Below, piece by piece: positions 6,011 to 38,498 of a DNA stretch of 64,000 nucleotides. The notes beneath the pieces were generated by a model. The model saw only the letters and a program-made list of their open reading frames with translations, searched no databases and was not told where the DNA came from. Position numbers and translations under genes: made by a program. Each line of letters begins with the position of its first letter. Position 1 is the first letter of the stretch. The stretch is from an uncultured Saprospiraceae bacterium (GTDB lineage: Bacteria; Bacteroidota; Bacteroidia; Chitinophagales; Saprospiraceae): positions 1-64,000 of the forward strand of contig CALLAW010000044.1 in NCBI GenBank assembly GCA_938001865.1, in the 5' to 3' direction.

Positions 6011-6537
6011 ATCCTATCTATTAGAGGTTTTTGGTTTTTGAGGATTGCGGAGATTATGGCATTGACGATCCCTCCTGTACCAATCATGAGAGAAACATAC
6101 TGCAATAAGACACTTCCAATACTTGCGACATTTTGATCTTCAATGGCTTCGAATGACTTATCCATCACTTCTTCTCCCAACATTCCGCTCATTGATTCTA
6201 ATGTTTCAAATGAGATTTCTTTTTGGATGTCTATTAGCTCTGGAGATATGAAATTGGCCATGATATAGTAAATAGCAATTCTGAAAAAATATCCAATCGC
6301 TACGGTGAGGAGTATAGGCATAAATAATTGGCCAAATGAGGCGTAACCGTCCTGTTGTGACTTGACATCGTTGGCGGTCTTGATCATAATCAGTAATGCG
6401 ATCAAAAAGAGTGTCCAATTCCCATAGATTAGAAAGCCTCTAGGATTGACTAATATAAATGCGATGCTACCTATGAGAATGGCTACCCCTAAGAAGAGGC
6501 CATTCTTTATTGCCAAATTTTTTATTGCTGGGTTCAT
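6007..6537 (-). CDS. DUF4199 membrane protein
   Basis: A small inner-membrane protein of 176 residues with four predicted transmembrane helices (about 12-32, 38-52, 72-95 and 143-163) and a soluble acidic segment between helices 3 and 4 (ISFETLESMSGMLGEE). This is the DUF4199 pattern of Bacteroidota. Function unknown. It overlaps the GT2 gene by four bases, and it commonly neighbours this kind of GT2 and a dihydroorotase-like gene in the phylum, as here. A role with the glycosyltransferase is only suggested by context. Confidence 0.8.
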   Translation of the reverse strand: MNPAIKNLAIKNGLFLGVAILIGSIAFILVNPRGFLIYGNWTLFLIALLIMIKTANDVKSQQDGYASFGQLFMPILLTVAIGYFFRIAIYYIMANFISPELIDIQKEISFETLESMSGMLGEEVMDKSFEAIEDQNVASIGSVLLQYVSLMIGTGGIVNAIISAILKNQKPLIDRI

Positions 6538-6594
6538 CTTGCTTCGAATGTTGATTTGAAAAATAGGTGATATGTAGCTGATTGAGTAAGTAAA

Positions 6595-7854
6595 TCAGTA
6601 TTGCATGTAAGTTTGGTTATTGCCAAATATACCTAAAATTTTTCCTTTGAGGTCTACCTGCCAAAACGGTGAGTTTTTTGATTTAGATTTATTTGTTTGT
6701 TGATTGAGGGTAAATGCTTGCTTGGGATCAAAGAGAGTAACTCTTGCTTGGGCTCCTACCTCGAGATCAGGTAAGGTTATTTGGAATATTTCTCTAGGGT
6801 TGATTGCTATGCATTTGACGAAAGTCTCTAGATCGAGCTTATCTATGTGTGTATTCATTGCAGAGAATAGAGTCTGTAGCCCTGTAGCCCCGCATGATGC
6901 TTTGTCAAACTCTACCAACTTGACTTCTTGATCAAGTGGTTGGTGATCTGAGCAGATGATATCTATCTTCTGTTTATTGAATAATTTGACTAGTTGATTT
7001 TGATCATTAGCTGATCTGAGTGGTGGGTCGACTTTGTAGTTGGTATTGAAGGTTAGCAACTGCTCATCATTATGCACGAGATGAAGATAGTTAACTGATG
7101 TATATATGTCGGAGTTTGACTTACTACTCTGAACTGACTTGATACTCTGAGGTGATGACAACTTGTGCAGAAGGAGTTTGCCTTGAGCATACTGATTGAT
7201 ACTAATATCTCTATTGGTGGCAATATCCTCAACAATGGTTGCTTGTCCTGTAAGTCCTAGGGTGATATTGACGCTGCCTTCATTCATCTGCCAGTCTGGA
7301 GATAGGCTCTTCACTCTAGGCTGGTTGACTACTACTGTGTCTAATGCTCTAGCATACTGTAGTGCTCTGTAGAGATTACCTTCGTCACTGATGGAGTGTG
7401 CCCCATCGGTATATCCTATAGCTCCGACTGACTTGAGGTCATGCATCTCGGTAAGATGACTCCCTAAAGTGTCTCGTGTAATCGCTGCACACGGATGTAT
7501 GTCTACTGCATGGGACTGGCTCTGTGCAAGGACAGAAGCTAAGGCAGCTGAGTTATCTAATGTGGGTTGGGTATTGGGGAAGGTAATGATATCGGTAAAT
7601 CCTCCTGCTGCGGCTGTATCAAGTAGTGAGGTCAGTGTATCTCTAGATTCGTAACCTGGCGCTGTCAGGTGTGTACCAGTATCTATCCACCCTGGTGAGA
7701 TGCAACCTTTGCTTAGCAGATGATTATACTTACTTGGTTTGAGGTTTTTACCTATTTCGCTAAATTTACCATTCTTGATGATAAAATCGAGGGTCTTACC
7801 ATTGAGCTTGTGTCCTGGGTATATGACTTTGAACTTCTGGAGGTAAACTGTCAT
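6595..7854 (-). CDS. Dihydroorotase-like amidohydrolase lacking canonical metal/substrate residues
   Basis: Amidohydrolase superfamily protein of about 419 residues, most like dihydroorotase. The ORF-track start is a TTG; ATG 7854 (MTVYLQKFKV) is preferred. The canonical motif DxHxHLRxPG reads DTGTHLTAPG here: the first metal His is Gly and the substrate-binding Arg is Thr. Elsewhere FPNTQP, the HKLSS His, the PPLRS substrate region and the SDHQP Asp are recognisable. Bacteroidota commonly carry such divergent PyrC-like proteins. It may be an inactive or altered paralogue, or act as an ATCase partner. It lies downstream of the BatA-like gene and upstream of DUF4199. Confidence 0.75.
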   Translation of the reverse strand: MTVYLQKFKVIYPGHKLNGKTLDFIIKNGKFSEIGKNLKPSKYNHLLSKGCISPGWIDTGTHLTAPGYESRDTLTSLLDTAAAGGFTDIITFPNTQPTLDNSAALASVLAQSQSHAVDIHPCAAITRDTLGSHLTEMHDLKSVGAIGYTDGAHSISDEGNLYRALQYARALDTVVVNQPRVKSLSPDWQMNEGSVNITLGLTGQATIVEDIATNRDISINQYAQGKLLLHKLSSPQSIKSVQSSKSNSDIYTSVNYLHLVHNDEQLLTFNTNYKVDPPLRSANDQNQLVKLFNKQKIDIICSDHQPLDQEVKLVEFDKASCGATGLQTLFSAMNTHIDKLDLETFVKCIAINPREIFQITLPDLEVGAQARVTLFDPKQAFTLNQQTNKSKSKNSPFWQVDLKGKILGIFGNNQTYMQY

Positions 7855-7887
7855 CTGGTAACATACTGGTGAGTAGATCAATTGAGA

Positions 7888-9906
7888 TCATCTCCAATAT
7901 CTGAGGATTAGAGTCTCAACTGCTAAAAATATCAACGCAAATATAAGACACCATTTCCATAGAAAAACCCCTTCTTCTTTTTCTTTGAGTTTGGCGAGGA
8001 ATTCTGATGCTCCTTGGCTGTCATAAATAGTATAAGTGTCACCATACTGCTCGGAGAGCTCTGAGTACGCAAAGACTGCTGGATCTGACTCAAGTCTATT
8101 GTGGTTGAATGCTACTGACCGAATCATCTTGTCACCATTATTAAGTGTATAAAATCCAGCCTCAGTGATTTCGTCTTTTACGATAAGTTCTGTAGTTGCC
8201 CCTTGGTTGGTCTGTTGAGGAATATACTCTGCTTGATCACCTTTCAATGTAACTATGGACTCTGCATTGCTGCTTGCATAAGGGACTTTGATTGTATTGG
8301 TCTTACCTATCTGGTAAGCAAGCGGAGTCTCAGAGCCTTGAGCAAATGTCATCTTGTATATCATCGGCACGAAGACTTCGGCGTACTCGACTAACTCGCT
8401 ATATCGTCTATCAAGTGGAGCTGCACAGACGTACAGATGTCCTTCCTCCCTTAGATATTTGGTGACAAAGGCACTTCCGCTCCTATAACTAAGAAGGGTC
8501 TCACCTGCTTTGTTGGATGTATTGGCAAATCTATATTGGCCAGTAACCTTAGGCAAGTCGGCATTGGATCTACGCTTGGTGTAGACCTTATTGAAGACAA
8601 ACTCATCGGTATTGATCCCAAATACGGTGTTGTCAACAGTCTCCCATTGAGTGATACGAGGTACACCTAACTTGTCAAAAAACTGGTTAAGTGAATTGAT
8701 ACTGGCACTCTGTGGAGGAAAACATACGACATTGCCACCCTTGCGGATAAATCCGTCTAACTCTGAGCTCAGACCAGATGAGAGATTGGCGACATCCTCG
8801 AGTATGATCAACTTATAATCGCTAAATGTGCTGTAATCAAGACTCTTGATATTACTCTGTGTAAGACTTATCGCAGGAATAGCATCAAATACTGCTTTGA
8901 CATACTTATTGGTTCCACTATCGGAGATGGCTAATACTCTATTGTCATTAGAGATCAGTGTAGAGAGATAATATTGGTCGTCAAATTGGATTGGATAATC
9001 TCGAATCTGAAGTGTAATATCTTGCTTTCCTTCAGAGAGCATGGTCAGATTAACGGTGTCTGTTCTTGAGGAGTTAGCATCTATTGAAAACGAACCTGCT
9101 GGTTTTTTCTGTCCATTCTGAAGGACTGTGAGAGTGACTTCGTCCTGCTTTGTATCACTGTAGTTGGTGAGTTTTACGAGTAGGGAATTTCTCTGCCCTA
9201 TCAATGCTACTGGAGAAGTAAAATAGGCACTATCTATGGAGATATTCTGCTGGGTGACTGCCTTGAGTGGGACTAGACTGAGAGCAAACGTGGTATCTGT
9301 CTCAATTGGCAAATCTGTAATTGACTTTTGAAAGTCAGAAAGCATAAAGAATGTTCTTTTTCCTTTTTGCTTTTCGAAGGTTTGTTTTTGCTTTTGCAAA
9401 ATGGTATTGAGGGACTTGACTTTTGGAGTGATCTCAATAGTCTTGATGGCCTCAAGTGCCTCCTCTTGGCTAAGTATCTTGGATGTCATCCCACTGTAAT
9501 CGTGGGTTAATACTTGGAATCTATCTGTCTCTTGGTATGATTGAACGATATCGCTAGCACGTTTTTTACCTTTCTCTATGAGAGGTACATCACTACTCAG
9601 ACTAGTCATACTAAAGGAGTTGTCAACAAACACCGAGACTAACTTCTGATCAATACTCTTATCCTTATCTCCTATAAATGGCTGAGCAAATCCTATCACT
9701 AAGAGGGCAACTGCCAATAGTCTGGTAAGTAATACGAGTAGATTCCTGAGTTTTCGACTTGCTGATCTCTCTTCTTTAACCTCTTTGAGAAACTTGACAT
9801 TGGTAAAGTAGACTTGCTTATATCTCCGAAAGTGAAAGAGATGAATGATAATAGGCACTGCAAGTGCTAGTAGACCCCATAATACTCCAGGAAATAAAAA
9901 CTGCAT
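7888..9906 (-). CDS. BatA-type N-terminal and von Willebrand factor A domain membrane protein
   Basis: An inner-membrane protein of about 672 residues. The start is placed at ATG 9906 (MQFLFPGVLWGLLALAVPIIIHLFHFRR), the hallmark BatA N-terminus; the ORF-track start adds 15 atypical residues. TM helices lie near 5-20 and 55-75. A vWA-like domain follows with the MIDAS-type DNSFSM. Later a glutamine-amidotransferase-like region surrounds VVCFPPQSASI, and a C-terminal TM precedes the stop. Proteins of this layout are widespread in Bacteroidota and loosely linked to the aerotolerance (Bat) operon. The exact function is unknown. Confidence 0.85.
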   Translation of the reverse strand: MQFLFPGVLWGLLALAVPIIIHLFHFRRYKQVYFTNVKFLKEVKEERSASRKLRNLLVLLTRLLAVALLVIGFAQPFIGDKDKSIDQKLVSVFVDNSFSMTSLSSDVPLIEKGKKRASDIVQSYQETDRFQVLTHDYSGMTSKILSQEEALEAIKTIEITPKVKSLNTILQKQKQTFEKQKGKRTFFMLSDFQKSITDLPIETDTTFALSLVPLKAVTQQNISIDSAYFTSPVALIGQRNSLLVKLTNYSDTKQDEVTLTVLQNGQKKPAGSFSIDANSSRTDTVNLTMLSEGKQDITLQIRDYPIQFDDQYYLSTLISNDNRVLAISDSGTNKYVKAVFDAIPAISLTQSNIKSLDYSTFSDYKLIILEDVANLSSGLSSELDGFIRKGGNVVCFPPQSASINSLNQFFDKLGVPRITQWETVDNTVFGINTDEFVFNKVYTKRRSNADLPKVTGQYRFANTSNKAGETLLSYRSGSAFVTKYLREEGHLYVCAAPLDRRYSELVEYAEVFVPMIYKMTFAQGSETPLAYQIGKTNTIKVPYASSNAESIVTLKGDQAEYIPQQTNQGATTELIVKDEITEAGFYTLNNGDKMIRSVAFNHNRLESDPAVFAYSELSEQYGDTYTIYDSQGASEFLAKLKEKEEGVFLWKWCLIFALIFLAVETLILRYWR

Positions 9907-32358: not shown

Positions 32359-33021
32359 ATGCATCGGATAATTCTGTTATTGATCTTCTCATTTGGCATC
32401 AGCCTATCGATCATCTCGGGACAGACGACTACACCATTCCAGACCTGGTCGGTTGTAGAGTTGGGGTATGACCTTGGTAAGATTGACTTAGAATCCAATT
32501 ATCAACTCAGACACTCATATGAGGAGCAAGCATTACTCGAGAGACACTTTGGTGAGATAGGCATCTCTTATAAGGTATTGAAAGAGCTCAAGGTAGGGAG
32601 TGTACTCAGGATAGGTAAGGACAGACGTAAGGATGAGTTCAATCCATTCAATAGGATCGCTATCTACTCTCAATATGCACATGACGTCAGTCGATTGACT
32701 CTCAAGTACAAAGTCCAATGGCAACATCAAACGAAGACAGTCAAAGAGGAAGACAGAATCACCGATAAACTCAGGATTAAAGTCACATCAGAGTATAATA
32801 TCAGGAAGTGGAAATTTGACCCAGTCTTCGCAGTAGAGTACTTTATTGCCAATCCCCGGATGACAGGATATGCCGGCGAGAAGTTTAGGTGTACGCTTGG
32901 TACAGAAAGAGAAATTGTCAAAAACCTCGTAATAAAAGGAGCTTACCGCATGGAGTTTGGTACAGCAGCAGATGTCACTAACCTTGCGATAGCACAGTTG
33001 GAGCTCAGCTATTCATTCTGA
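32359..33021 (+). CDS. DUF2490 outer-membrane beta-barrel protein
   Basis: 220 residues. A signal peptide (to about residue 21, IISGQ) is followed by a beta-rich barrel with FQTWSVVELGYDLGKIDLESNYQLRH, the DUF2490 opening, and a C-terminal strand ending LELSYSF, typical of outer-membrane insertion. Function unknown. It is the first gene of a unit with the VTC-domain and DUF4956 genes (20 bases apart), a combination that suggests a cell-envelope role in the same process. Confidence 0.8.
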   Translation: MHRIILLLIFSFGISLSIISGQTTTPFQTWSVVELGYDLGKIDLESNYQLRHSYEEQALLERHFGEIGISYKVLKELKVGSVLRIGKDRRKDEFNPFNRIAIYSQYAHDVSRLTLKYKVQWQHQTKTVKEEDRITDKLRIKVTSEYNIRKWKFDPVFAVEYFIANPRMTGYAGEKFRCTLGTEREIVKNLVIKGAYRMEFGTAADVTNLAIAQLELSYSF

Positions 33022-33041
33022 CAGAGAGAGTACTCATCGAG

Positions 33042-33818
33042 ATGAAAGAGAGCAATCACAATATCGTTACAACCCTAAGTCACCTCAAGCCTATATCGCT
33101 TGAAGAGATGAATGCAGTGGCTCTAATGAAGCGATTGGATTCGAAGTTTATCCTGTCAGTGGACCGATTGCCTACATTGCTCCATCGCATCAAAGATGAT
33201 TATGCATTACTCACCATCAATGACGATAATATCTTTGATTATCGGACTACCTACTATGATACTGATGTCCTAGAGACATATACAGACCACTTGCGTGGAA
33301 AGTCTGCACGCCACAAAGTGAGAATCCGAGAATATACTAATACAGAGGTGTGCTACTTCGAAGTCAAAAAAAAACAAAACAATGGTGTCACAGATAAGGT
33401 GAGAATAAAGACCCAAATCATCAACTCAAAGTTAACACCTGAGCAAAGAGAATTCTTTGACAATCACTTACAAGACGCATCGAGTGACCAGTACAGTAAG
33501 GTCTTGACTAATACATTCAATAGAATCACGCTTGCTAATCCAGGTAATCAAGAGAGGGTTACGATAGACTACAATCTCAGCTTCAGTGATGACTTACAGA
33601 CGAGGACATTTGACAATCTCTGTATCATCGAGATCAAACAACCGCGAATCAATCGATTGACAGCCATATTTTTGGGACTCAAATTAATGCAAATTAGACC
33701 TTTGCGAATCAGCAAATACTGCCTTGGAGTCTCTGCTCTCAAAGATGTGAAATCCAATCTATTCAAACCAAAACTCCGAACAATCAACAAAACAATACAC
33801 ACTTATGGAACTGTTTGA
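33042..33818 (+). CDS. VTC-domain protein, putative polyphosphate polymerase
   Basis: A 258-residue soluble protein of the CYTH/triphosphate-tunnel superfamily, VTC branch. It starts with the family's conserved LMKRLDSKFIL lysine/arginine region. The tunnel residues RIREY and the ExKxK-type FEVKKKQNNGVTDKVRIKT follow, and a late acidic CIIEIKQPR. Yeast Vtc4 makes polyphosphate from ATP with these residues; bacterial homologues are annotated as polyphosphate polymerases by similarity only. It overlaps the DUF4956 gene by 14 bases. Confidence 0.82.
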   Translation: MKESNHNIVTTLSHLKPISLEEMNAVALMKRLDSKFILSVDRLPTLLHRIKDDYALLTINDDNIFDYRTTYYDTDVLETYTDHLRGKSARHKVRIREYTNTEVCYFEVKKKQNNGVTDKVRIKTQIINSKLTPEQREFFDNHLQDASSDQYSKVLTNTFNRITLANPGNQERVTIDYNLSFSDDLQTRTFDNLCIIEIKQPRINRLTAIFLGLKLMQIRPLRISKYCLGVSALKDVKSNLFKPKLRTINKTIHTYGTV

Positions 33819-34434
33819 AATACCTCTATATGATGATGACTTTATCAAGTTGTCGTTCAGATATCTTATCAATTTCATCTTTTCGTTTATACTGATTAGA
33901 GGGATCTACTATCCTACTTCTAAGCGTAAGGACTACCTATTCACCTACTTTATGATAAGTACTGTAGTGTTCCTGATCTGTTTCACTCTCAAAAAGTTTG
34001 AATTAGGTCTAGGCATGGCACTCGGCCTCTTTGCCATCTTTGGCATCCTAAGATATCGGACTGATACGATCCCTATCAAAGAGATGACCTATCTCTTCGT
34101 CGTCATAGGCATGGCAGTGATCAATGCCCTAGCGAATAAGAAGATGAGCATAGCAGAGGTCGTATTGGCCAATACGCTTCTCCTCACCATAGGCTATATC
34201 TTAGAGAAGGTATGGCTACTCAAGCATGAGACAAGAAAAAACATCCTCTATGATCGGATAGAGTATATCAAACCTGAGCACTATGATGCTCTCAAGACAG
34301 ACTTAGAGTCTCGGACTGGTCTAGTCATCAATAGAATAGAGGTGGGGAAGTTAGACCTCCTAAGAGATACAGCTAATGTAAGGATATACTATTATGATCA
34401 CGATCAACTCAGAAATTACGAAGAGAGAGTGTAA
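33805..34434 (+). CDS. DUF4956 membrane protein
   Basis: 209 residues with four helices in the first 130 residues (about 20-35, 48-66, 72-88, 98-140) and a C-terminal cytoplasmic domain (from YDRIEYIKPEHYDAL). DUF4956 proteins are regularly encoded next to VTC-domain genes. Its start overlaps the VTC gene by 14 bases. A plausible but unproven role is a membrane channel or anchor for polyphosphate made by the VTC protein. Confidence 0.82.
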   Translation: MELFEIPLYDDDFIKLSFRYLINFIFSFILIRGIYYPTSKRKDYLFTYFMISTVVFLICFTLKKFELGLGMALGLFAIFGILRYRTDTIPIKEMTYLFVVIGMAVINALANKKMSIAEVVLANTLLLTIGYILEKVWLLKHETRKNILYDRIEYIKPEHYDALKTDLESRTGLVINRIEVGKLDLLRDTANVRIYYYDHDQLRNYEERV

Positions 34435-34487
34435 TCTACCACTACTTACACTGTGAAGACTAGGTATCTCTGGGTGATGGGAAGTGA

Positions 34488-35015
34488 GTATTATCTGTTG
34501 ATATTGGGGATAATTGTATTGTTAGAGGTAAGCAAGAATCCCTGAATCACAGTCGAACGAATAAAATCTATCAAAGGAAAGAATCACTAAAACTTGTATT
34601 CAAAAGAGACTTTATCGATAACGTTCCAATATTATATAATGCAAAGTTTATATATCCTACTCCAAAAGATGGGAAGGACAACATGGGGATATTATTTAAC
34701 CACTTAACGACGACTATTACTGATAGAAAAACTCGAAAACGTGAGTATGATAATGATAGAAGTCAAAGATTACATTGGCTTAAGTTTCATATCAATAAAG
34801 GTAAAAATGACAATGTGTTAGCTTTTTCAGTCAAAGAGCCAGAAGGTATTAGAACCTATATTTATGACATTGATGAATTGTATGTGATTATACTTGAACC
34901 ACTATGGAAAGTTGCAGCTTATTATCTCTTAACAGCTTACTATCTGAGAGGTAAAGATGTAAAAAGAAATAAAATTCTAAAAAAATACAAAAGAAGGCTT
35001 AGTGATTTGGTATAA
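34488..35015 (+). pseudogene. 5'-truncated PBECR-like nuclease-domain gene
   Basis: The ORF track gives ATG 34683 (110 aa), but the open frame extends back to the stop at 34485 and is homologous-looking throughout: FKRDFIDNVPILYNAKF, then ILFNHLTT, RSQRLHWLKFHI, FSVKEPEGIRTYIYD, YYLLTAYYLRGKD and KRNKILKKYKRRL. These blocks resemble the phage Barnase-EndoU-ColicinE5/D-RelE-like (PBECR) nuclease families as I remember them. No start codon precedes the first conserved block, so the 5' end is probably lost. A hairpin terminator follows at once. The AT-rich composition differs from its neighbours. Confidence 0.5.
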
Positions 35016-35017
35016 AT

Positions 35018-35052
35018 GCAAAAAACGCAGAACATCTTGGTTTGCGTTTTTC
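35018..35052 (+). terminator. Intrinsic terminator after the PBECR-like gene
   Basis: AAAAACGCA (35021-35029) pairs with TGCGTTTTT (35043-35051), giving a 9-bp stem with a T-run on the 3' arm. It begins six bases after the stop codon. Confidence 0.75.
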
Positions 35053-35404
35053 GATTTCCTTCCTTCGAATGAAGGATGAACTTGGTGCATAAGTAACTCT
35101 TTCTTCAATTATAACCAAATTGGATTATAAAAGTTCCATTAAGCATTGATAGTCAAGCTAATACAACATGTAAAGCGAATGAAATGCCTACAGCTAACAC
35201 TAGATATGCTCGCATATCTGTTCGTTCCTCACAGAGACCACGACATATCATTATCCGTCCGTTATCATCAATGTGCTAAAAAATGATCTTAATTCCTCCG
35301 GGTTTAATCAAATTTGCATCATTTTGCACTTAGTTGTGGGTTATAATTTCATATTTACTAATAATTGACGATATAGATATCTATATTAGTATAAATTACT
35401 AAAT
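35053..35404. other. Gene-free stretch before fic with palindromes
   Basis: About 350 bases without a credible ORF. It holds a perfect hairpin AGATATGC-TC-GCATATCT (35202-35219), preceded by CCTACAGCTAACAC, a segment resembling the GGCTAACA piece found after fic (36561-36569). Near its end is the fic operator candidate. The rest is AT-rich and unremarkable. Confidence 0.45.
35365..35395 (+). promoter_or_regulatory. Candidate fic promoter with 16-bp palindromic operator
   Basis: The perfect palindrome ATATAGATATCTATAT occupies 35371-35386, framed by TTGACG (35365-35370) and TATAAA (35390-35395). The fic ATG follows at 35405, so the transcript would be almost leaderless. The palindrome between the promoter elements suggests a dimeric repressor site. 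Confidence 0.45.
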
Positions 35405-36538
35405 ATGGACATAAAAGACTTTGTTGCAGGTAAGTTTATAGAACAATTGGAATACAAGTCCTTCTCACCTAATAAAATCAATAAACAGTGGATTATTTCG
35501 AATCCTGAAGTGAACAGTCTTTTGTCAGAAGCTAACAGACTGATAGGAGAATTGAATGCTTTTTCACAAATTATTCCAGACGTTGATTTTTTTATAACAA
35601 TGCACATTATGAAAGAAGCAACAACATCAAGCAAGATTGAAGGCACTAAAACAAATATGGATGAGGCACTTATAAAAGATGAAGAAGATATAAATCCAGA
35701 AAAAAGAGATGACTGGGGAGAAGTTCAAAACTATATAAATGCAATTAACAAGTCAATTGAAGAATTAAAGAATATTCCAATCTCTAATAGGCTATTAAGG
35801 CAAACTCATGAAGTACTTCTCTCAGGTGTACGAGGTAAACATAAACTTCCTGGACAATTTAGAAGAAGTCAAAATTGGATAGGTGCTACACTAAAAGATG
35901 CAATATTTATTCCGCCACACCCCTCCGAAGTAGAAGAATTAATGTCAGACTTAGAAAAATTTATTCATAATGAAAAGATAAGCGTACCTCATCTAATAAA
36001 AATTGGGATAATTCATTATCAATTTGAAACAATTCATCCTTTTCTTGATGGAAATGGAAGATTAGGAAGACTTTTAATTTCGTTATATCTTGTTAGTAAA
36101 AAAGTATTATTAAGACCCTCACTCTACCTCTCAGACTTTTTTGAGAAAAATAAAGCCTATTACTATGACAATCTCATGATAGCAAGAGTCTCAAATAACT
36201 TAACCCAGTGGATTAAATTCTTTTTAGTAGGAGTTATAGAAACATCAAAAAGTTCAATTTCCGTATTCAAAAATATACTGAAATTAAAATCAAAATTGGA
36301 AACAGAGGTATTACCTAAGCTTGGCTCTAAGGTGAAGAAAGGCCAAACGTTACTAACGATTCTATATCAATATCCTATAGTGAGAACAAAAAATGTTGCA
36401 GCATTTTTAGACATTTCAACCTCAACTGCTAACAGACTAATAATGGACTTTATAGGACTTGGTATACTTGAAGAATATACAGGATACAAAAGAAACAGAA
36501 AATTTATATTCCGAGAATATGTTGACTTGTTCAAATAA
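35405..36538 (+). CDS. Fic-domain AMP-transferase with C-terminal winged helix
   Basis: 377 residues. An N-terminal Fic_N-type region contains the autoinhibitory helix motif TSSKIEG (74-80), followed by the Fic core with HPFLDGNGRLGR (211-222), a complete catalytic motif. A C-terminal winged-helix (about 305-375: LLTILYQYPIVRTKNVAAFLDISTSTANRLI) follows. This is the class II Fic layout, where the same protein carries inhibitor and enzyme, and such proteins usually AMPylate cytoplasmic targets. The gene is AT-rich compared with flanking core genes and stands alone between repeat-like sequences. It is probably horizontally acquired. Confidence 0.92.
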   Translation: MDIKDFVAGKFIEQLEYKSFSPNKINKQWIISNPEVNSLLSEANRLIGELNAFSQIIPDVDFFITMHIMKEATTSSKIEGTKTNMDEALIKDEEDINPEKRDDWGEVQNYINAINKSIEELKNIPISNRLLRQTHEVLLSGVRGKHKLPGQFRRSQNWIGATLKDAIFIPPHPSEVEELMSDLEKFIHNEKISVPHLIKIGIIHYQFETIHPFLDGNGRLGRLLISLYLVSKKVLLRPSLYLSDFFEKNKAYYYDNLMIARVSNNLTQWIKFFLVGVIETSKSSISVFKNILKLKSKLETEVLPKLGSKVKKGQTLLTILYQYPIVRTKNVAAFLDISTSTANRLIMDFIGLGILEEYTGYKRNRKFIFREYVDLFK

Positions 36539-37253: not shown

Positions 37254-38498
37254 TTATTGATCAATCTCTACACAGAGATACCTTCTAAATTGGAGTGCAA
37301 AGTGCTGCATTCTCTCTAATTGCTGGTCTGTGAACTCGTGCACCTCTGCGGTGTATGACATATGATTCTGGTCAATAATTGCTTGTGAAGTCAGTCCTTG
37401 GAGTTCGAGATTGATAGAATCTAATCTCCACGGGTGTTTGAGACCTAAGAAGTGTCCCATCTCATGGACTAATGTCGTAGCCTCTTCTAATCCTAAGTAA
37501 CTCAGATAGATCCGGTCAAATCTTGGAGTATTATACTCATATGCATACTGTCTCGCCTTAAGTACTGGCGTAAATCCCAATAACTCACCTACGTTGCCAT
37601 CCGTAGCATACGTCTCACAGACGAAGATATTGACCCCACCTTGAATCTCTATAGGCTGAGTAAATTCTCTAATGATCTCCGACCCTGTTCCATAGATCTC
37701 ATTTTTGATCTCTGGCAGATAGACTTGCCTCTCATCTAAGACGATATGTCCAAGTTCAAATCTGATGAGCCCTTCAAATTCCATATTGAGTATCTTGATG
37801 TTTTCACCAATCTGGACTGTAGTCTTAGGATCACTTCTGTTCTCTGCATTCATGAGATAGAAGTTTACCTTCATGAGTGGGATACCTGTAATTGTCTCTA
37901 ATGGCTCACCATCTAGTGGTATGACGATGTCTTGAGTAGTCCCTATCAGAGGTACCAACATGAGGAGGATGACAGACAAGAGGGCAGCATACTTCTGCCT
38001 TAGCTTGGTGAGCTTAGGGGAGATGACATACTGACAATATCCTTGCTGAGGATTGAGCTTGTAATAATTCTGATGATAGGCTTCGGCAGGATAGAATACT
38101 TGATCAGTATCTACCTCAGTGACCACTGGCAATCCCCATATTTCTTCGGCATTTGCGACAGCAGTATTGATGACCTCCAAGTCACTCTCCTCGGAGTAGT
38201 AGATCGCAGATCTATACTGAGTACCTACATCATTGCCTTGTCGGTTGAGTGTCGTGGGATTATGCATGACGAAGAATATCTCGAGCAACTGTCCCAGAGA
38301 GATCTGATCATTGTCATACGTGATCTTGACCACCTCTGTGTGACCAGTGACTCCCATGCAGACGGTCTTGTATGTCGGATGATCATCATGACCACCTGCA
38401 TACCCAGAGACTGCTGAGAGTACTCCCTTGATGTCTTGGAATATCGATTCGATACACCAGAAACATCCACCACCAATTATGATTACTTTCTCATCCAT
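37254..38498 (-). CDS. msrA: Fusion of peptide methionine sulfoxide reductase MsrA with an exported M43-like metalloprotease
   Basis: 414 residues in one frame. Residues 1-170 are a full MsrA: GGGCFWCIE (catalytic Cys in GCFWC), GHTEVV, YRSAIYY, YPAEAYHQNYY and the conserved C-terminal YCQYVISPKLTKLR (Cys154 as resolving Cys). Directly after comes a hydrophobic stretch AALLSVILLMLVPLIG (171-186), which reads as a signal peptide or TM anchor. Then follows a metalloprotease domain with HEMGHFLGLKH (345-355) and Met-turn HMSYT. The expected topology is MsrA in the cytoplasm and protease outside. MsrA is normally about 170-180 residues. Either a genuine fusion or a lost stop codon; see findings. 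Confidence 0.85.
   Translation of the reverse strand: MDEKVIIIGGGCFWCIESIFQDIKGVLSAVSGYAGGHDDHPTYKTVCMGVTGHTEVVKITYDNDQISLGQLLEIFFVMHNPTTLNRQGNDVGTQYRSAIYYSEESDLEVINTAVANAEEIWGLPVVTEVDTDQVFYPAEAYHQNYYKLNPQQGYCQYVISPKLTKLRQKYAALLSVILLMLVPLIGTTQDIVIPLDGEPLETITGIPLMKVNFYLMNAENRSDPKTTVQIGENIKILNMEFEGLIRFELGHIVLDERQVYLPEIKNEIYGTGSEIIREFTQPIEIQGGVNIFVCETYATDGNVGELLGFTPVLKARQYAYEYNTPRFDRIYLSYLGLEEATTLVHEMGHFLGLKHPWRLDSINLELQGLTSQAIIDQNHMSYTAEVHEFTDQQLERMQHFALQFRRYLCVEIDQ

Follow-up and report, generated by a model that had tools for sequence, protein, structure and literature searches.

The window, a stretch of 64,000 nucleotides from an uncultured Saprospiraceae bacterium, contains a gene in which MsrA continues, with no stop codon in between, into a zinc protease that is predicted to be exported, and this is a real, conserved and lineage-restricted gene fusion. 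The genus-specific fusion probably works as a two-product precursor, in which an internal Sec signal would send the protease outside, signal peptidase I would cut before Gln189 and MsrA would stay inside. The initial annotation had described an MsrA fused in frame to a metalloprotease, and our ORF reading of the 64-kb window agreed with it on the open frame, its coordinates and both domains. The gene occupies positions 37254-38498 of the minus strand as a single open frame of 414 aa, and reading of the whole 414-codon frame revealed no internal stop, at about 37988 or elsewhere. Its features are as follows.

37254..38498, minus strand: fused gene for MsrA, predicted internal signal peptide and metzincin protease (same frame in all four genus genomes)
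37977..38498, minus strand: MsrA domain, residues 1-174, cytoplasmic type, without N-terminal signal peptide (PF01625, TIGR00401 and tree grouping)
38454..38468, minus strand: GCFWC, MsrA active-site motif, residues 11-15 (invariant in the four fusions)
37977..38015, minus strand: C-terminal basic helix of MsrA, residues 162-174, KLTKLRQKYAALL, probably doubling as signal-peptide n-region (charge pattern, predicted helix)
37941..37976, minus strand: hydrophobic core of the putative internal signal peptide, residues 175-186, SVILLMLVPLIG (hydropathy)
37932..37934, minus strand: Gln189, predicted signal peptidase I +1 residue, GTT|Q (invariance and Q-rule)
37257..37934, minus strand: predicted mature metzincin protease, residues 189-414 (model pLDDT 84.7 and Foldseek)
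37434..37466, minus strand: HEMGHFLGLKH, zinc-binding motif, residues 345-355 (HE-GHF-GL-H invariant in fused and standalone members)
37353..37367, minus strand: NHMSY, Met-turn, residues 378-382 (NHM-Y invariant in fused and standalone members)

The Pfam profile PMSR (PF01625) matched residues 6-156 with an E-value of 4e-60 and 202.9 bits against a cut-off of 23.7. The match spans positions 2-153 of the 153 in the profile, which bears out the earlier view of a complete MsrA, and TIGR00401 gave the fused MsrA a score of 185.4 against a cut-off of 108.1. The end of the domain had been placed at residue 170. Unfused MsrA relatives of the same clade end like KYSKLLKTN or KKLHIKYSKLLKTN, so the window MsrA ends at about L174 instead, and the fusion point, as judged from these sequences, is within a few residues of the natural MsrA C-terminus. 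In the alignment of the four fusions the GCFWC motif and the residues C12, E55, D90, Y43 and Y95, whose roles are those assigned to them in the MsrA family, are invariant, and by this reading the MsrA catalytic residues are intact in the fused copies. The fused MsrA has no N-terminal signal and is grouped in the tree with signal-less, cytoplasmic-type MsrA. In each of the four genus genomes we found another MsrA, which bears an export or lipoprotein-like signal at its N-terminus (L002:3-767 on contig C70 of the window genome; L042, L043 and L044 in the congeners), and the fused copy therefore appears to be the sole cytoplasmic MsrA. Cytoplasm and envelope would each be supplied with an MsrA in every member of the genus.

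The protease half passed the cut-off of Pfam Peptidase_M43 (32-34 bits versus 23; 32.2 for the window protein), the best stretch covering only about 25 residues around the zinc site. The HExxHxxGxxH motif and the Met-turn, present as HEMGHFLGLKH and NHMSY, are conserved in fused and standalone members alike, and the zinc-site residues that are predicted to be catalytic are intact. When the predicted model of residues 189-414 was submitted to Foldseek, adamalysins, ADAMTS and PAPP-A were retrieved (E-values down to 4.7e-08 for adamalysins and ADAMTS, TM about 0.6), and the metzincin fold is well supported by this model. The M43 pappalysins (mirolysin, ulilysin and PAPP-A) and other metzincins share the HExxHxxGxxH motif, the Met-turn and the metzincin fold, here by model, with the protease. 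However, its loop between zinc motif and Met-turn is short, the protease halves of the fused sequences hold only one or two Cys and no Cys-Gly motif of a cysteine switch, and Foldseek ranks adamalysins and ADAMTS ahead of pappalysins. Mirolysin has a cysteine-switch pro-segment and two disulfides in its catalytic domain (PMC6949598). Because the M43 match is short and neither a cysteine switch nor paired disulfides are present, we class the protease as a metzincin whose zinc site is M43-like, rather than as a pappalysin. The label M43-like given to it initially thus holds for the profile cut-off and for HEMGHFLGLKH at residues 345-355, and only loosely for the protein as a whole. Two tandem standalone copies of the same metzincin are found in G022 (L037:2418-4108), with a third copy at L036:5894-6646. 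A distant metzincin branch (E about 1e-14 to 1e-18) is present in another Saprospiraceae genus, g4, for example at L040:5090-5788, and shows a comparable pattern near its C-terminus, NYMSY...FTPEQL.

The same fusion, in one intact frame, was found in all four genomes of the genus examined, which are separate assemblies. Identity to the window protein was 61% for G001, 52% for G002 and 53% for G003, with a range of 51-61% across the four, and synonymous sites were saturated or nearly so (dS not computable or above 2.6 in both domains). The dN values of 0.23-0.31 in MsrA and 0.34-0.53 in the protease were well below dS in both halves, while the 35-residue junction varied freely (dN about 0.9-1.6). 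Between 6 and 12 of the 34 to 37 junction codons per gene are one substitution away from a stop. As dS is saturated and the frame is intact despite these codons, the joined frame must have been kept through a long divergence in the genus, which rules out a read error. The window and G001 have a downstream TerB-like gene in common, and G002 and G003 a long collinear neighbourhood. The window also contains an extra stretch (32359-36538) between genes that nearly adjoin in G001 (L033); genes for a Fic protein (35405-36538) and for a membrane protein with DUF4956 (33805-34434) lie within it.

The signal-peptide-like segment comprises residues 162-188 of the 414-aa chain. Codon by codon, the junctions of the window and the three congeners are KLTKLRQKYAALLS-VILLMLVPLIGTTQ, KLSKLRKTFTALLK-SLIIILMSFVGLQAQ, KVKKLKANYASLLK-TLVVFCFFFSSQFLPGQ and KVSKLRKHYSHLLK-VVVIFLGMLSGFQATSQ. 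The hydropathy analysis placed the core S175-G186 within the most hydrophobic 15-residue window of the chain, equally in all four proteins. In every fusion the 20 residues that precede the core carry a net charge of +3 to +4, and the charge behind the core is -1 to -4; these basic and then acidic flanks point to an N-in orientation. Inspection and hydropathy revealed an n-region, a hydrophobic core and a small residue followed by Gln in each of the four. From L174 to G205 the four fusions share a single invariant residue in between, Gln189, in a linker of 30 residues that otherwise varies freely; its column depends on the gap placement of the aligner. Across Bacteroidetes, cleavage by signal peptidase I exposes Gln in most substrates, on average in 71% of the predicted ones (PMC5837995), and the invariant +1 Gln is as this Q-rule predicts. 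A small residue and Gln near the core were seen in 21 of 35 signal-peptide-like ORFs of the genus, a rough count that includes a few lipoproteins and membrane proteins. In the window species the residue at -1 is Thr, a weak signal peptidase residue.

On the basis of hydropathy, charge and the position of the Gln, we read the junction as an internal cleavable signal peptide, and the basic end helix of MsrA fits well as its n-region. The initial annotation had offered this as one option, with the msrA stop lost and the C-terminal helix serving as n-region, and the sequences of all four species suit it. In the full-length AlphaFold model, which had no alignment for the MsrA half and is poor there, helix 162-185 is continuous at moderate confidence. 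No usable stop codon, frameshift or overlapping out-of-frame gene was found at the junction, and the promoter and terminator scan stayed at chance level. In G002 and G003 the fusion is separated from the upstream gene by a terminator-like hairpin with a T run (L034:9986-10186 and L035:7569-7768), and this upstream hairpin suggests that the fusion may have its own promoter in these two genomes.

Could the chain remain uncleaved? Such a bitopic membrane protein would hold MsrA in the cytoplasm and the protease in the periplasm, with the hydrophobic segment as signal anchor, and the N-in/C-out charge pattern of all four proteins, the modelled helix 162-185 and the presence of one hydrophobic segment are consistent with it. 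On the other hand, the core, with about 12-16 residues, is rather short to act as an anchor, a signal-peptidase-like site with a conserved +1 Gln is present in all four, and standalone relatives apparently rely on ordinary N-terminal signals for export, so that this arrangement seems fairly unlikely. The permanently membrane-anchored two-domain chain envisaged in the initial annotation is accordingly the weaker of the two readings, as the short core and the Q at +1 in four species favour cleavage. It also seems distinctly improbable that, besides the full-length fusion, the protease is initiated separately at an internal TTG or ATG near the junction. No conserved in-frame start or Shine-Dalgarno-like site was found there in the four genes, no stop ends MsrA, so the fused chain would be made anyway, and RNA structure at the junction was not above that of shuffles (z 0.08). 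Separate initiation could draw on the TTG that three of the genes have at the junction or close to it (codon 174 in the window and G002, codon 178 in G003), and initiation at a TTG of G002 would yield a signal peptide of ordinary appearance; this genome has no in-frame ATG between the MsrA QGYC motif and the protease domain. At the same place G001 has only a CTG, with TTG and ATG further off.

One of the halves might be non-functional, with MsrA serving just as a leader to the protease, or the protease carried along passively behind MsrA. The second, exported MsrA in each genome could spare the fused one, but it sits in another compartment, and both halves show active-site residues and strong amino-acid constraint, which makes this explanation very improbable. 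With a draft genome of 108 contigs, one might suspect an artefact of sequencing or assembly, a frameshift error, or a stop codon lost recently in a single strain, and a frameshift or stop at about 37988 had been proposed as the place of such an error. No stop lies in frame, and the frame is likewise uninterrupted in the assemblies of the three congeners. Four species, each with its own assembly, have this frame in common at 51-61% identity and with conserved neighbours, which refutes this explanation and leaves it a negligible probability.

We favour the cleavable precursor because the frame is intact in all four genomes despite saturated dS, with low dN in both halves, and because the absence of a conserved junction start is combined with a conserved +1 Gln and with basic and acidic flanks of the core. 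It is further favoured by the signal peptides ending in Q of several standalone relatives, by the intact catalytic residues of both halves and by the monophyly of the fused copies in both trees. The ribosome would first make MsrA and next, at its natural C-terminus, a Sec signal peptide with the basic MsrA end helix as n-region. The nascent chain would then insert N-in/C-out, the protease crossing via Sec; signal peptidase I would cleave before Gln189, where pyroglutamate would form, and the protease would fold in the periplasm or beyond. MsrA would remain on the cytoplasmic side with a hydrophobic tail, either tail-anchored at the inner membrane or later trimmed. We infer these steps, from single-chain translation through export and cleavage to the fate of the tail, from the sequences. 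The fusion might be advantageous by coupling the expression of the repair enzyme to that of the envelope protease; the observations fit just as well with a neutral fusion that persists since the protease no longer has a start of its own. We propose only tentatively that one message yields an inner-membrane-tethered MsrA and an exported metzincin in a fixed ratio, with the MsrA C-terminal helix as n-region.

The protease profile was searched against 398 Saprospiraceae genomes, and strong matches (E < 1e-80) were found in 35, the four genus members with the fused form and 31 others with a standalone protease. The open frames are 415-442 codons long in the former versus 237-295 in the latter. All standalone proteases read are separate genes, many with a hydrophobic N-terminus, and several begin with an ordinary signal peptide whose last residue is Q (e.g., FQGLGQ and ILQAQ). 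No msrA was found within about 1.5 kb of the standalone loci read in other genera. Relatives with two separate genes, the arrangement set against a true fusion in the initial annotation, are thus seen only in other genera, with msrA not adjacent where read, and within the genus all are fused. In an order-level sample of 299 genomes, matches at 1e-15 were obtained only in Saprospiraceae, and named records and taxonomy place the protease family there. In both trees the fused copies fall together in a single clade (protease 98/96, recovered in 100% of bootstraps; MsrA 100/98), and therefore a single fusion event is indicated. Viral contigs yielded no relative of the MsrA part.

As to the site of origin, an MsrA-MsrB gene adjoins comEC in G035 (L041:5341-6243 and 6468-8498), and in G002 and G003 comEC is found at a distance of two genes from the fusion. 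This hints at an origin of the fusion at the msrA locus but is only suggestive, as the other msrA loci examined are without comEC. The surroundings of the window gene are altered on one side. The protease might have replaced the MsrB domain of an MsrAB gene. The position near comEC in G035, G002 and G003 speaks for it, whereas separate MsrB genes are common in the family and genus and a sister position of MsrAB is not resolved in the MsrA tree.

No earlier description of an MsrA-metalloprotease fusion was found in the literature searched, in line with the initial annotation. The fused copy resembles ordinary MsrA (PF01625, TIGR00401) in its whole domain, active-site motif, length and signal-less grouping, but ordinary MsrA stops at the C-terminus where the fused copy continues into the predicted signal peptide and the protease. 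Fusions of MsrA with MsrB (MsrAB) are known, as in Helicobacter pylori (PMC8000184), and occur in the related Saprospiraceae G035, G005 and G016. In MsrAB, too, a second domain is joined after the natural MsrA C-terminus, but both domains are repair enzymes of one compartment, whereas the second domain here is an unrelated protease apparently destined for the opposite side of the membrane. The domains joined in bacterial fusions usually belong to the same compartment. In Bradyrhizobium japonicum, the FbcH cytochrome b/c1 precursor yields two proteins from one gene by a cut at an internal signal peptide. The likeness to FbcH lies in the proposed single gene with two products split at an internal signal peptide, here predicted; the FbcH products are subunits of one complex, whereas the halves here are unrelated enzymes.

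In the present gene an enzyme of the cytosol comes before one that is predicted to be exported, and the junction would illustrate how a native C-terminal helix can be recruited into a signal peptide when a stop is lost. The wider importance is limited for now, since the protease is largely confined to one bacterial family and has no known substrate. The four species offer a test case for internal signal peptides, for signal peptidase cleavage after a folded cytosolic domain and for the reach of the Q-rule, and they carry a warning for annotation, as such genes may yield two proteins in two places. If true, the two-compartment precursor would link methionine-oxide repair with envelope proteolysis.
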